From positions 1,116,001 through 1,180,000 of the forward strand of contig NZ_PDIZ01000001.1 in the NCBI RefSeq assembly GCF_002563635.1: a DNA stretch of 64,000 nucleotides, read 5' to 3'. A program made the translations under genes and the position numbers. Positions 9,828 to 39,245 of this stretch are shown piece after piece. The notes below the pieces were generated by a model. It ran no database searches. It had not been told where the DNA came from and saw only the letters and a list, made by a program, of their open reading frames with translations. Positions within the stretch are counted from its first letter, which is position 1; the number at the start of each line of letters is the position of its first letter. This stretch comes from Bacillus sp. es.036 (GTDB taxonomy: Bacteria; Bacillota; Bacilli; Bacillales; Guptibacillaceae).

Positions 9828-10882
9828 AGTTATTAAAAGGGAAATGGGCGAGCATTACTGTACCGCTGCTTTCGGTAGCTCTTGGATTACTCGTCGGTGG
9901 GATCATCATGCTTGTGAGTGGCTACAATCCCATTGTAGCGTATGCAGCACTGTTTAACGGGATTTTCTCAAACACGTATGTGTTAGGTGAAACTGTTCGG
10001 CAGATGACTCCGCTCATTTTGTCGGGGTTAGCCGTGGCTTTTGCTTTTCGTACAGGGCTTTTTAATATTGGAGTAGAAGGGCAGCTGCTTGTCGGCTGGC
10101 TAGCATCTGTTTATATCGGGCTTCAATTTGAAGGGTTAAGTCCTGTAGTTCATATTCCTCTTGCAATTATTGCAGCAGCATTGGCTGGAGCGATTTGGGC
10201 CTTTGTACCTGGATTCTTGAAAGCAAAGTATCAAGTTCATGAGGTTATTACAACGATTATGATGAACTACGTTGCTCTTCATGTCGTTAACGCAATTATT
10301 CGGACGTATTTACTCGCTCCTGGTGAGCGTACGGATCAAATTAATGCTTCAGCATCGCTTCAATCGCCGTTCTTAGAAGCCATTACTGATTTCTCACGTC
10401 TTCACTACGGTTTTGTTGTGGCGATTATTGGAGCGATTATTATGTGGTTCCTTCTATGGAAAACGACGACAGGGTATGAACTACGCTCTGTTGGATTTAA
10501 CAAATATGCGTCAGAATATGCTGGAATCAATGTGCAACGAAACATCGTTCTTTCTATGGTCATTTCGGGTGCATTTGCTGGAGCAGCAGGAGCGATGGAA
10601 GGGCTTGGAACATACGGTTATATGACCGTTATGGCTGACTTTACTGGCGTTGGATTTGACGGAATCGCAGTTGCGCTTTTAGGTGCAAATGGGGCGCTTG
10701 GTGTTGTCCTTGCTTCTGCACTGTTTGGTGGGCTTAAAATTGGTGCGCTTAATATGCAGTCAGTTGCTCAGGTGCCAACACAGCTTGTTGAAATCGTGAT
10801 TGCGATGATTATTTTCTTTGTCGCATCCAGTTACTTGATTCACTGGATCAGCAACAGGGTGAGCAAAAGGGGGAAAATTTAA
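9824..10882 (+). CDS. nupP: Nucleoside ABC transporter permease, subunit 1
   Basis: A 352-aa integral membrane permease of the BPD_transp_2 (RbsC-like) family with about nine or ten hydrophobic segments. Recognisable features are LSGLAVAFAFRTGLFNIGVEGQ near the N-terminal third and the late Gly-rich stretch FDGIAVALLGANGALGVVLA. It pairs with NupQ to form the membrane channel of the nucleoside importer. ATG overlaps the nupO stop, and its own stop overlaps the nupQ start (TAATG), so nupO, nupP and nupQ are translationally coupled. Confidence 0.9.
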   Translation: MKLLKGKWASITVPLLSVALGLLVGGIIMLVSGYNPIVAYAALFNGIFSNTYVLGETVRQMTPLILSGLAVAFAFRTGLFNIGVEGQLLVGWLASVYIGLQFEGLSPVVHIPLAIIAAALAGAIWAFVPGFLKAKYQVHEVITTIMMNYVALHVVNAIIRTYLLAPGERTDQINASASLQSPFLEAITDFSRLHYGFVVAIIGAIIMWFLLWKTTTGYELRSVGFNKYASEYAGINVQRNIVLSMVISGAFAGAAGAMEGLGTYGYMTVMADFTGVGFDGIAVALLGANGALGVVLASALFGGLKIGALNMQSVAQVPTQLVEIVIAMIIFFVASSYLIHWISNRVSKRGKI

Positions 10883-11844
10883 TGGATTTCATGCAGATTC
10901 TTCAGCTCATTATTCCTGCCGCTATCTTTTCAGCAGCTCCCCTGATTTTCACGGCTCTTGGAGGAGTATTCAGTGAAAGGTCAGGCGTTGTAAACATCGG
11001 ACTTGAAGGGTTAATGTTAATGGGTGCTTTCACAGGCGCGCTGTTTACAATCCTTGGCGAGCAATGGGGAATGGGAGCCGCTTCTCCCTGGTTTTCACTA
11101 GTCGTTGCGATCATTATCGGCATGCTGTTCTCTTTGCTTCATGCAGTGGCAAGTATTTCGTTTCGAGCCGATCAGGTTGTTAGTGGCGTGGCCCTTAACT
11201 TCCTTGCGGCTGGACTTGCCATCTTCCTTGTGAAGAAAATCTTTGATGCAGGGCAAACGCCGATTATTCAAGAACGTATTTATAAAACGGATGTTCCATT
11301 TTTAAGCGATATCCCATTTATTGGACCTTTGTTTTTTTCGAGCGCGTATTATACATCTTACATTGCGGTTGCGCTTGCCTTCCTCGTATGGTGGGTTCTC
11401 TATAAAACCCCATTCGGTTTACGACTCCGTTCAGTAGGAGAGCACCCTATGGCGGCAGATACGATGGGGATTAATGTGACGAAAATGCGCTATGTAGCGG
11501 TTATGCTAAGTGGTGGATTTGCCGGTCTCGGGGGTGCGGTTTACGCGACGTCGATCGCAGGGAACTTTAGCCATGCAACGATTTCTGGACAGGGCTTTAT
11601 GGCACTAGCCGCGATGATCTTTGGTAAATGGCATCCGCTTGGTGCGATGGGAGCAGCGCTATTCTTTGGTCTTGCTCAATCGCTAAGTATAACCGGCCAA
11701 CAAATTCCGGGATTAAAAGAAATTCCAGAAGTATATCTTCTTATTTCCCCTTACGTGTTAACGATTCTTGCTCTTGCAGGACTTGTTGGACGAGCGGATG
11801 CGCCAAAAGCCATTGGTCAGCCGTATGAAAAAGGGAAGCGATAA
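10882..11844 (+). CDS. nupQ: Nucleoside ABC transporter permease, subunit 2
   Basis: A 320-aa integral membrane permease, second half of the nucleoside importer channel. It shows the family's TALGGVFSERSGVVNIGLEGL at the N terminus, LRSVGEHPMAADTMGI in the cytoplasmic coupling region and the FMALAAMIFGKWHPLGA segment. It is the last gene of the nup operon; a G:U-containing hairpin terminator follows within ten bases. Confidence 0.9.
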   Translation: MDFMQILQLIIPAAIFSAAPLIFTALGGVFSERSGVVNIGLEGLMLMGAFTGALFTILGEQWGMGAASPWFSLVVAIIIGMLFSLLHAVASISFRADQVVSGVALNFLAAGLAIFLVKKIFDAGQTPIIQERIYKTDVPFLSDIPFIGPLFFSSAYYTSYIAVALAFLVWWVLYKTPFGLRLRSVGEHPMAADTMGINVTKMRYVAVMLSGGFAGLGGAVYATSIAGNFSHATISGQGFMALAAMIFGKWHPLGAMGAALFFGLAQSLSITGQQIPGLKEIPEVYLLISPYVLTILALAGLVGRADAPKAIGQPYEKGKR

Positions 11845-11853
11845 CGTTTAGAG

Positions 11854-11890
11854 AAAAGCTCTTCGTGAAAACGGAGGGCTTTTTGTTTTT
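11854..11890 (+). terminator. Intrinsic terminator after nupQ
   Basis: AGCTCTTCGT, GAAA loop, ACGGAGGGCT (two G:U pairs), then TTTTGTTTTT. Confidence 0.88.
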
Positions 11891-11936
11891 AGGTAGTGTT
11901 TTGTGGTGGGGGAAGGAGCGGTACCAAGAGTATAAA

Positions 11937-12480
11937 GAACGTGTTCAAATGAAATGCCTCCAGCGCTTGTCGAGGCTAAGCGGGCGCTTCCGCTTTTCTT
12001 GATCCAGCTGCAGCCTCCAGACCCTCGGTCACTTCACCTTTCAACCTGAACACAAAGGGCGTGTTCAGGTTGAAAGGCTCCAGTGCCTGCCGGGTCTAAC
12101 CGGAGGCTTCCGCTTTTCTTGTCCAGCTGCGACTCGCAGAAACTACGATATTTCGCTCTTTCACCAGAACGCAAAAAGCGCGTTCTAGTTCAAGAGCTCC
12201 AATATCTCCGTTTCTAACCGCTCGTCTCCGCTTTTCGTTAGATCCAGCTGCAGTGGGCAGACACTCGGTCACTTCACCCTATAACTCGAACACAAAGGGC
12301 GTGTTCAATTTATAGGGCTCCAGTGCCTACCGTGTCTAACCGCCCACTTTCGCTTTTCATGATCCAGCTGCAGTGGGCAGGGTCTCGATCGCTTCACCAT
12401 TTCAAATGAACACAAAGACCGTGTTCTCTTGAAATGCCTCCAGCGCTTGTCGACCCTAACCGCCAACTTTCGCTTTTCTT
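11937..12480 (+). repeat. Head-to-tail array of 4.5 structured 120-nt repeats
   Basis: Four complete units begin at 12001, 12121, 12241 and 12361, each exactly 120 bases, preceded by a right-half unit (11937-12000). Each starts near GATCCAGCTGCAG, has a central CACAAAGGGCGTG-like loop and ends in YGCTTTTC. The two halves of a unit pair with each other through three stems. Between units the stem sequences change while pairing is kept: AGACCC/GGGTCT, AGACAC/GTGTCT, AGGGTC/GACCCT and AGAAAC/GTTTCT in one stem; TTTCAACCTGAACAC/GTGTTCAGGTTGAAA, perfect over 15 bp, in another. No ORF is conserved through it. The array fills the gap between the nup operon and ymfF. I recall related CAGCTGCAG-type elements in other Bacillaceae but know no formal name. 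It is not a CRISPR array: units are long, diverged and self-complementary. Confidence 0.9.
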
Positions 12481-12527: not shown

Positions 12528-12587
12528 GGGGGTAAGTTTTACTTTCCTCTAATGGTAAGTAATGGATTTAAAAAAGGAGTGAGGTCA

Positions 12588-13865
12588 ATGGCGATTATCC
12601 CTCATGAGAAAACCTCGTGCGGCGGTTTGACGCTACATAGGATCCAGACGGATAAATATAAAACAACGACGGTTGTGGTTCAATTTAAAGCGCGTTTGAC
12701 GAAGGAGACTGTGACGGAGAGGGCTCTTTTGCCATATGTGTTGCAAAGCGGTACGGAAAACTATTCTTCTTCGAAAGCGGTTCGTACGGAACTTGAGAAG
12801 CTTTACGGGGCGACGCTAGGTGTGGATCTTGCCAAGAAGGGTGATTTTCATGTGATGACGTTCCGGATGGACTTCGCGAATGAAAAGTTCCTTTCTGAAG
12901 ATGAGCCTTTGTTTAAGAAAGCCCTTTCTTTACTTTCAGAAGTGATCATGAATCCTAAGACGGATGGATCTGGCTTCGATTCTTCGATTGTTGATAAAGA
13001 AAAGCGGACGATGAAACAGCGTATTCAATCGATTTATGATGATAAAATGCGCTATTCGAACATGAGACTAACGCAAGAAATGTTCCCGAATGAGGCTTTT
13101 GGATTGCATATTTACGGAGAAAAAGAAGAAGTGGATCGCGTGACAGCGCAGTCTCTTTATGATTACTATAAAAAAGTTTGTGCAGAAGATGAAATTGACT
13201 TTTATTTAGTTGGTGACTTAGAAGGCGTTAATGCTGAAGAAGTTGTAAAAGAGCTTTTCCCGTTTCAAGAACGTAGCGATCGAAAGTCTGAAACAACTGA
13301 AAAAGCCTCTCTTGATGTGGAAGAAAAAGAGATCCTTGAAACACAGGAAATCAAGCAAGGGAAGCTTCATATGGGCTTTCGCTCTGGCGTTGGTTATGCG
13401 GATGATGAATACTTCGCCCTTCAAGTATTTAATGGCATGTTTGGAGGTTTCTCACACTCCAAGCTTTTTCGGAACGTACGGGAAAAAGAAAGCCTTGCTT
13501 ATTACGCCGCGTCCCGCTATGAAAGTCATAAAGGCTTAATCATTGTGATGTCTGGCATTGAGTTTAAAAACTTTAAAAAGACTGTTGATATTATTCAAGA
13601 GCAGCTTACGGCTATGAGAGAAGGCGACTTCAACGAGGAAGAAATGAAGCAAACAAAAACCATGATTCGCAATCAGCTCCTTGAGACGGTCGATGACGCA
13701 AAAGGAATGGTCGAGCTGCTTTATCACGGTGTTGTCTCTCAAAAGCTACGTACAATTGAAGAGTGGCTTGATGGTGTGGAAGCTGTGACAAAAGAAGATA
13801 TTTTAGCGGTTGCGGATAAGGTTAAGCTTGATACCGTTTATTTCTTAAAAGGCGAGGAGGCTTAA
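12588..13865 (+). CDS. ymfF: YmfF, M16-family peptidase-like protein without the zinc motif
   Basis: A 425-aa member of the M16 (insulinase/processing peptidase) superfamily. The HxxEH zinc-binding motif is absent, as in its B. subtilis counterpart, so it is probably the non-catalytic partner of YmfH, which does have the motif. The second M16 half is visible at GKLHMGFRSGVGYADDEYFALQ. The in-frame start at 12552 is less likely than the ATG at 12588, which follows AAAAAGGAGTGAGG. ymfH begins two bases after its stop, so the pair is one operon. The substrate is unknown to me. Confidence 0.88.
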   Translation: MAIIPHEKTSCGGLTLHRIQTDKYKTTTVVVQFKARLTKETVTERALLPYVLQSGTENYSSSKAVRTELEKLYGATLGVDLAKKGDFHVMTFRMDFANEKFLSEDEPLFKKALSLLSEVIMNPKTDGSGFDSSIVDKEKRTMKQRIQSIYDDKMRYSNMRLTQEMFPNEAFGLHIYGEKEEVDRVTAQSLYDYYKKVCAEDEIDFYLVGDLEGVNAEEVVKELFPFQERSDRKSETTEKASLDVEEKEILETQEIKQGKLHMGFRSGVGYADDEYFALQVFNGMFGGFSHSKLFRNVREKESLAYYAASRYESHKGLIIVMSGIEFKNFKKTVDIIQEQLTAMREGDFNEEEMKQTKTMIRNQLLETVDDAKGMVELLYHGVVSQKLRTIEEWLDGVEAVTKEDILAVADKVKLDTVYFLKGEEA

Positions 13866-17211: not shown

Positions 17212-18159
17212 TTGACAGAGCTAGGTCAACGTCTGAAGGACGCTCGAAATGATAAGGGATTATCGCTCGAGGAAATTCAGTCCATCACTAAGATTCAAAA
17301 ACGCTATCTTCATGCCATTGAAGAAGGAAATTACGAACTGCTTCCAGGTAATTTTTATACGCGTGCATTCATTAAAAACTATGCGGAAGCAGTTGGCCTT
17401 CACGGAGATGAATTGCTTGAGGAGTACGCTTCTGAAATTCCAAAAGCAAACGCAGATGTGCCTGAAAGTTTACCACCAAGGAAAATGAGAAGGCCTCAAG
17501 CGCCGAGTAAGTCATCTTCTGTATCATCAAAATGGTCTTCCGTGTTTCCATCTGTTCTTGTCGTGTTACTCATTGTAGGTGTCGCAGCGTTAATCTGGTA
17601 TGTTGTTCAAAGTGGTGACCAGAAGACGAATCAGAACGCAACGACGAATCAGGCGGAGGAGCAAGTGACAAGCGATGAAAACAGCGGCAGTGCTCCAGAC
17701 TCAGATGAAGTAAGTAACGAAGGTGATGCTTCAAAAGAAGCAACGACTTCTGAAGAAGAGGCAACATCAAAAGAAGATGAAAAAGCAGAGGAAGAAAAAG
17801 CTGCTGAAGAAGAAAAAGAGCCAGAAGAAGAAGAAGCCCCTAAGATGGAAATTAAGAAAGTAAAGAGTGATACTGATAATTCTACGTTTGAAATCACAAA
17901 CGCAGATAAATTTGAAGTAAAGTTAGAAGCATCTGGATCTAGCTGGGTAGGTTTAACGGGGGCGAGTGACAAAAAGTATGTATACGAAAGTCTTGCTAAA
18001 GGGAAAAGCGTGACGCAAGATTTATCAAAAGAGTCTTCTGCTACGCTTCGACTCGGAAGTTCTCCTAGCATTGAAGTGTTTGTGAATGGCGAAAAAATTG
18101 ACATACCAAAAGAACCAGTTGTTCAAAATGTAACCTTTACTTTTGAAAAAGCAGAATAA
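17212..18159 (+). CDS. rodZ: RodZ-like cell-shape protein (YmfM)
   Basis: A 315-aa single-pass membrane protein linking the MreB cytoskeleton to the wall-synthesis machinery. It has an N-terminal Xre-type HTH_25 domain (GQRLKDARNDKGLSLEEIQ, about residues 1-75) that in homologues binds MreB. A membrane segment (VLVVLLIVGVAALIWYV) lies near residue 115-135, then a long Glu/Ala/Ser/Lys-rich linker and a C-terminal DUF4115 beta domain. Start is TTG at 17212 with GGTAGGTG upstream; no better start gives the complete HTH. It precedes pgsA as in B. subtilis. Confidence 0.9.
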   Translation: MTELGQRLKDARNDKGLSLEEIQSITKIQKRYLHAIEEGNYELLPGNFYTRAFIKNYAEAVGLHGDELLEEYASEIPKANADVPESLPPRKMRRPQAPSKSSSVSSKWSSVFPSVLVVLLIVGVAALIWYVVQSGDQKTNQNATTNQAEEQVTSDENSGSAPDSDEVSNEGDASKEATTSEEEATSKEDEKAEEEKAAEEEKEPEEEEAPKMEIKKVKSDTDNSTFEITNADKFEVKLEASGSSWVGLTGASDKKYVYESLAKGKSVTQDLSKESSATLRLGSSPSIEVFVNGEKIDIPKEPVVQNVTFTFEKAE

Positions 18160-23170: not shown

Positions 23171-23508
23171 CTAACTACATAGTCTTTGTATACTAGTCTT
23201 TTCACCATAAAACTTACTGGATTTCCATGATCAGGCAGTGAATGACCATTCAATTACAAAGTTATCACGAGAAGTTTAAGGCGTAAAAATGAGCTAGAAA
23301 GAGATATTTAAAGGGATTTTGCCTCTATGTGCTCTCTTGACAACCTTTACGCTGAAAGATACAATATTAATTGTATAATTATAATTTTCTAGTAAAATTA
23401 TACTTTACTCTTAAAAGATGACATGTGCTGGATTGAAATCTTGCAAGTGGTACTAAGAATTAACATGACAGCAAACCAACAAGTTGATAGCAGGAGGAGG
23501 TGAGTTCG
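23171..23508 (+). promoter_or_regulatory. recA-rny intergenic region with consensus promoter
   Basis: About 340 bases without a gene. TTGACA (23337-23342), 17-base spacer and TACAAT (23360-23365) form a near-consensus sigma-A promoter for rny, implying a leader of roughly 135 bases. The AT-rich stretch around 23370-23400 carries more TATAAT-like words. The GGAGGAGG RBS is at 23493-23500. I see no riboswitch or ORF in the rest. Confidence 0.75.
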
Positions 23509-39128: not shown

Positions 39129-39245
39129 AGATCAAGCTCCAACCCCCAGACACTCGGTCACTTCACCTTTTCCTCTGAATACAAAGAGCGTATTCAAATG
39201 AAAAGGTTCCAGTGCCATGCCTAAACGGAGGCTTCCGCTTTACTG
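39129..39245 (+). repeat. Solo copy of the 120-nt structured repeat
   Basis: About 117 bases with the same layout as the array at 11937-12480. It has the shared blocks CAGACACTCGGTCACTTCACC-like left half, AATACAAAGAGCGTATTC loop and GGCTTCCGCTTT right end. The central stem CCTTTTCCTCTGAATAC pairs with GTATTCAAATGAAAAGG apart from two mismatches. The outer stem is less well kept than in the array. It lies between the cotE terminator and mutS. An ORF across it (39042-39224) is not credible. Confidence 0.85.

Follow-up and report, generated by a model that had tools for sequence, protein, structure and literature searches.

Between a permease gene and a gene of the YfmF family in Bacillus sp. 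es.036 lies a series of head-to-tail hairpins whose stem sequences differ from copy to copy while their arms remain complementary. This locus raises the question of what is being kept: a structured RNA, a mobile element or a hairpin that acts as DNA. We addressed this question in the window (the whole stretch of 64,000 nucleotides that was analysed), in its source genome (G000) and in genomes of its relatives.

The array and its repeat family

Tandem Repeats Finder (TRF) reported an array at 11940-12480 of the window with a period of 120 and 4.5 copies. Using nhmmer, we resolved it into a leading 3′ half unit (11925..11998, model positions 43-116), which spans from near the hairpin tip to the unit end CGCTTTTC, and four full units with a matched length of 115-116 bases each, all on the plus strand: unit 1 (12003..12118, with arms AGCCTCC/GGAGGCT and AGACCC/GGGTCT), unit 2 (12122..12236, AGAAAC/GTTTCT and GATATT/AATATC), unit 3 (12243..12358, AGTGGGC/GCCCACT and AGACAC/GTGTCT) and unit 4 (12363..12478, AGGGTC/GACCCT), whose end CGCTTTTC is also the end of the array. 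The preliminary description of four tandem units and a half is borne out, and the arm pairs that it quoted are found in the sequence; its exact spacing of 120 is not, as the unit starts lie 119, 121 and 120 apart, nor is the loop constant, since unit 2 differs and carries CGCAAAAAGCGCG. Upstream on the plus strand lies a gene for an ABC transporter permease (BPD_transp_2; 10882..11844), with NCBIfam matches below the cut-off only, and 3′ of it, just before the array, a terminator-like hairpin with a T tract (11854..11885, plus strand; AAAAGCTCTTCGTGAAAACGGAGGGCTTTT followed by T). The downstream gene (12552..13865, plus strand) belongs to the YfmF family (M16 peptidase-like). A single unit of the same repeat family is found between the cotE gene and mutS (39132..39243, plus strand). 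TRF also reported two short tandem repeats elsewhere in the window (17786-17837 and 23373-23409).

Each of the four full units folded better than all 200 of its dinucleotide shuffles, both as RNA (z of -7.4, -4.2, -5.7 and -4.4 for units 1 to 4) and as DNA (z of -6.4, -2.7, -4.9 and -3.6), with unit 2 folded on nearly the same stretch as 12122..12236. The half unit at 11925-11998 had no fold excess (RNA z of -0.15, with 80 of 200 shuffles equally good).

BLAST with one unit yielded 66 matches in the source genome. Profile searches across 27 fetched regions and the window resulted in 97 hits, of which 82 spanned nearly the whole unit; 81 of these form the free alignment A1, in which some unit ends were extended by one to three bases and from which the partial L033:2251-2355 was left out. 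The model R1, built from A1, found 88 matches in the genome (E up to 0.001) and added single units to the profile set, including a pair in rRNA spacers and another at C1:2670393. By profile hits, there are 30 arrays of one to six full units each. Units are ~118 nt long, their spacing is mostly 118-122 genome-wide, and the listed matches within an array share one strand, head to tail; the tandem arrangement remarked on at the first locus is a property of the repeat family across this genome. Eight arrays fall within ~122 kb at G000:C1:677-800 kb, a higher density than the genome-wide mean of about one array in 140 kb. Short repeated words, TTCCGCGAAAT-like or TTGGCTAATAAAA- or ATTGGCCAAAA-like, occur just 5′ of several arrays (L031, L034, L038, L051 and L053; L117, L118 and L336).

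R1 matched 63 of 81 genomes of relatives (own genome included), representing 42 of 57 genera. Each of the 14 genomes of the genus held at least 45 units, the maximum scored in any genome. We also drew 299 Bacilli, own genome included, and, scoring 12 candidates per genome under strict filters, found matches in 42 genomes and 23 of 119 genera. The pattern of a tandem junction was found in at least 119 stretches in named genomes. Among the 80 of these stretches that were listed, all names belong to Bacillales in the wide sense; these include Pseudalkalibacillus, Rossellomorea, Planococcus, Anoxybacillus, Lysinibacillus and Psychrobacillus. One unit used as a query against a plasmid collection and a different one against a phage collection gave no match.

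As had been proposed, we compared the sequences with Rfam: neither the window nor 14 loci from other genomes had a gathering match, and relaxed thresholds gave chance-level hits alone. Neither six literal consensus strings nor a matching description was found in the literature searched, a scope outside which most subscription papers fall, and PMC12306157 and PMC2229807 yielded nothing specific on the repeat family. A match to a named repeat, which would have spoken against the proposal, was not found in these searches, with bcr1 and the B. halodurans families compared by description. As far as these searches show, this is a large, unnamed repeat family of Bacillales, with the nearest Bacillus repeats compared by description.

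Covariation and the balance of mismatches

The units fold into a structure of four helices with 29 pairs, 24 of which change on both sides. We found 93.6% of cells paired, versus 74.5% after shuffling and 26.7-42.3% with partners slid; as the structure was derived from the same units, it is favoured over the slid versions. The number of further pair types was unremarkable, with 62 of 500 shuffles as high. The compensatory change proposed from four units is thus real and far above controls, and covariation, whose absence would have spoken against the proposal, is strong across many copies relative to shuffles. Units of other genera have the same structural plan with different stem sequences. 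The unpaired bulges are conserved among units, as are the consensus ends, TCYAGCTnC and CCGCTTTTC (TCCAGCT and CGCTTTTC in A1), and some units are chimeric between two types. About 1 in 11 distinct units has arms that are less than 80% Watson-Crick (7 of 77 in A1; 9 of 116 in A3, the distinct units of other congeners; 8 of 79 in A2, the distinct units of other genomes).

Strong covariation is what a structured RNA, read from either strand and selected for its fold, would leave. An RNA that folds as one strand tolerates G.U but not A.C in its covarying helices. The ratio of GT to AC mismatches was 29:36 in A1, 41:41 in A3 and 41:42 in A2 without filtering, where cells are not independent and A2 and A3, having been fitted to the model, are biased towards pairing. 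By comparison, a tRNA control with fixed stem geometry (38 distinct tRNAs of the source genome, scored in their acceptor and T stems) gave 38:1. The near equality of GT and AC in the arms, set against the tRNAs, argues for pairing that is maintained at the DNA level, although symmetric mismatches would also be expected with neutral decay of units after recent copying. Restricting the sets to units with at least 80% Watson-Crick arms gave 8:16 (A1, P 0.15), 13:26 (A3, P 0.05) and, for other genera, 24:29 (A2, P 0.58). In well-paired congener units, the mild A.C excess would correspond to some G.U excess when the other strand is read, and it is this other strand that convergent genes and rRNA transcribe. 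This allows for a weak constraint on a minus-strand RNA, although a ratio of 2:1 with P no lower than 0.05 is well short of 38:1. A structured RNA of the ordinary kind is unlikely.

How the arms come to match can be followed by comparing copies. Among pairs of copies, so that a single change is counted several times, stem differences at up to 3% divergence were one-sided in 23 cases and two-sided in 1 (A1 and A3 together); above 20% divergence, 78-79% were two-sided. Close copies therefore carry single mutations, with selection or correction re-establishing complementarity afterwards. That covariation arises when one arm is copied from the other in a single step is disfavoured, as 23 of 24 changed stem pairs were one-sided at 3% or less.

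Array sites and the turnover of their content

We surveyed the sites of the 30 arrays of the source genome with mechanically called open reading frames of at least 90 codons and a simple test for a hairpin plus T tract, using 1200 random intergenic points in three fetched chromosome stretches as a control. The upstream gene was on the same strand for 24 of 30 arrays (control 42%), and a terminator-like hairpin lay no more than 130 nt ahead of the array in 21 of 30 cases (control 15%), 2 of these 21 hairpins resembling repeat remnants. At the 3′ end, an opposing stop codon lay within -4 to +4 nt of 12 of 30 arrays (control 1.5%), two of the 12 opposing frames being merely 90 and 93 codons long. 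An excess of convergent neighbours was not significant (16 of 30 versus 42%, P 0.15).

Two single units lie in 23S-5S rRNA spacers of the source genome (L342:1223-1338, equal to G000:C3:133722-133837, and L343:2521-2636, equal to G000:C3:172520-172635; both minus strand), antisense and 4 nt past the modelled 23S end, and, judged by eye from the neighbouring 23S sequence, rRNA-spacer units occupy the corresponding position in five further genomes (L073, L082, L090, L094 and L101). Units in 23S-5S spacers must be transcribed, which fits a structured RNA, as do the covariation and the A.C excess; the position of 21 of 30 arrays behind a terminator-like hairpin, the mismatch balance and the lack of an Rfam match speak against it, and we judge selection for an RNA fold to be improbable on either strand. 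The interpretation offered at the outset is partly supported: its options included a DNA hairpin and exchange between copies, and a structured RNA of one strand, another of them, is not supported.

Individual sites vary in content. The proposed comparison of the syntenic gap between the permease gene and yfmF among 14 congeners revealed 0 to 5 full units: G013 and G012 are unit-free, G008 has a partial unit only, and others have up to five. At the L049 site (L328-L341), the distant congeners L340 and L341 are empty and L338 has a half unit directly behind the T tract; by eye, the T tract of L340 leads straight into the opposing stop. Arrays at this site end in CTTTAC and not CTTTTC, and TTTAC is also present at the host stop codon of the empty L340, which makes it possible that an array's final letters belong to the host. 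The L036 site holds remnants alone in L312 and L315, and no unit was detected there in L314, L319 and L320, of which L319 and L320 carry other flanking sequence. Across 48 arrays (the source genome plus fetched parts of G009 and G007), 19 start with a partial unit whose first model position ranges from 17 to 82, and 25 start with a full unit that is preceded by a unit-end remnant. The script assigned the other 4 to neither class, although one of these shows such a remnant by eye. The array end reaches the last model position in 44 of 48. Breakage at the hairpin tip is our guess for the source of the leading half units, which often begin close to that tip.

In contrast to their content, the sites themselves are stable among near relatives. 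Each of the 8 array sites of G000:C1:660-820 kb also carries repeats in the congeners G009 and G007 (two of them only partial units in G007), with flanks ~92-99% identical, whereas unit numbers and types differ among the three genomes. Turnover is so rapid that, counting types by 3′ halves, orthologous arrays exceeded chance only slightly in two of three comparisons, with 9 of at most 20 types in common (expected 7.75, P 0.35) and 5 of 15 (expected 4.24, P 0.41). The third comparison gave 10 of 17 (expected 6.15, P 0.008), which means that some vertical inheritance of unit types remains. The same unit types recur at many sites.

Junctions behave differently from bodies. Identical junctions made up 32 of 92 pairs within arrays versus 77 of 2609 between arrays in the source genome, 11 of 40 versus 7 of 338 in the G009 part and 7 of 26 versus 3 of 184 in the G007 part. 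Bodies more than 90% alike made up 15 of 107 pairs within arrays versus 185 of 3214 between (source genome; reached by 0 of 300 permutations), an excess that is also present in G009 and not clear in G007, and from which it follows that local duplication contributes. The array at G000:C1:730402 has five bodies in five type combinations, and 4 of its 5 scored junctions are GCATTTCGTG. In the genome G027, where 15 of 30 matches were examined, two different body types sit at nearly identical flanks in rRNA spacers, a distant pair of units is 93% alike, and in one array two body types are framed by the same array-specific variant junction. A local junction with a travelling body is the core of our finding. 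As a pattern, a large family of palindromic DNA cassettes that swap bodies at stable sites has good support.

Plain tandem duplication of a decaying palindrome, in which pairing is the leftover of an ancestral perfect inverted repeat, would produce tandem units and leading partial units, and it fits the greater frequency of like junctions, less so of like bodies, within arrays. Neighbours are nevertheless mostly of different types (only the 15 of 107 pairs above are alike), the arms diverge in step, the unpaired bulges remain conserved, and types common to many sites and to different species are hard to reconcile with it. We regard this explanation as very improbable, and the least probable of those considered.

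Our own reading is that the units are dispersed, non-coding, imperfect palindromes of Bacillales that act as DNA and whose bodies are swapped between arrays, to which we give an even chance. The pattern is that bodies are drawn from a genus-wide pool while junctions are largely local to the array. We infer that they may be swapped and copied between arrays via recombination or replication template switching at hairpins, for which the conserved ends and unpaired bulges would provide common sequence. Unequal exchange would alter the number of units, and hairpins in single-stranded or cruciform DNA would at once promote the exchange and maintain the pairing of the arms. As a mechanism, such body swapping at stable sites is only moderately supported. 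The flanks of the compared genomes differ by 1-8%, so that rates and single exchange steps are deduced. More specifically, and more tentatively, the family may be a gene-free cassette system in which long-lived docking sites behind terminators receive hairpin cassettes that are swapped genome-wide without an enzyme of their own, the folded DNA strand being recognised and maintained; we consider this possible, short of an even chance.

Mobility and comparison with known systems

The main rival to exchange between DNA cassettes is a non-autonomous mobile hairpin, similar to a MITE or REPIN, that inserts behind T tracts and T-rich unit ends through a transposase acting in trans. It would account for the dispersal over many genera, for one site holding 0 to 5 full units, for L340 and L341 being empty where other congeners are filled, for the terminator-like hairpins before 21 of 30 arrays (control 15%) and same-strand upstream genes at 24 of 30 (control 42%), and for the complete final unit in 44 of 48 arrays. 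Candidate enzymes are less consistently present. The Y1 transposase domain (PF01797), which does not distinguish RAYT from IS200-like proteins, was found in 72 of 81 genomes and is absent from 5 of the 63 carriers (G026, G027, G057, G068 and G080), all but G027 being drafts of 30 to 210 contigs. Reverse transcriptase (PF00078) is absent from 10 of the 14 genomes of the genus, and both domains are absent from three carriers (G026, G027 and G057). These absences speak against the two obvious enzyme families only, and loss after spread is possible, as is a mobilising enzyme outside the two. A test for target duplication, weakened by decayed 5′ boundaries, revealed none (4.90 flank words in common versus 4.65 in shuffled pairings, sd 0.18). 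Taken together, we consider a mobile hairpin doubtful, though far from implausible.

Y1 transposase and reverse transcriptase were each rejected as mobilisers because they are not in every carrier. Target-primed reverse transcription, suggested by truncated 5′ and complete 3′ ends, was dropped, as RVT_1 is absent from 10 of 14 genus genomes. Four proteins with a Y1 transposase domain (frames of 181-285 aa) are encoded within 100 kb at G000:C1:3208739-3306370; no array comes within 21 kb of their genes, and frames of similar length occur in many relatives.

Should the exchange of DNA cassettes be true, cassette-like turnover at fixed sites would serve as a natural test system for hairpin-driven exchange on bacterial chromosomes. 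On the gene-free reading, the observed covariation would reflect the structure of DNA and not of RNA. Covariation by itself is no proof of RNA, and the balance of G.U and A.C helps to separate pairing at the DNA level from pairing at the RNA level.

Several known systems share features with this family. Group IIC introns insert behind terminators. Integrons recombine at sites in a folded strand and hold arrays in a fixed place with shuffled content; by contrast, the Bacillales cassettes are gene-free and no integrase was identified. BOX elements of Streptococcus pneumoniae have a three-part A-B-C build with variable tandem middle modules. Both they and the Bacillales family are structured and intergenic with variable tandem modules, whereas the Bacillales units are full hairpins of one plan. 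By the title of the paper describing it, bcr1 is reportedly specific to the B. cereus group; we compared it by description. Like the present units, bcr1 is an intergenic Bacillus repeat of similar size, and it is listed as structure-forming in the passages concerned (PMC2267715, PMC3733652). Bhal-1 and Bhal-2 of B. halodurans, given there as 74 and 76 nt long with 36 and 50 copies (PMC2267715), are likewise stem-loop repeats of a Bacillus relative; we compared them by description, and an overlap with the Bacillales family is possible. REP and BIME elements are short tagged palindromes associated with RAYT genes, and the passages on them in PMC2817692 and PMC3733652 contain none on this Bacillales family. 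REP, BIME and REPIN elements resemble our units in being intergenic palindromic DNA with many copies and tandem mosaics. As noted above, a Y1 protein was not found in every carrier here. REPs are 20-40 bp long, bear a GTAG or CGTC tag and occur in alternating orientation within BIMEs, whereas the Bacillales units are ~118 nt long, have consensus ends without such a tag and run head to tail on one strand.
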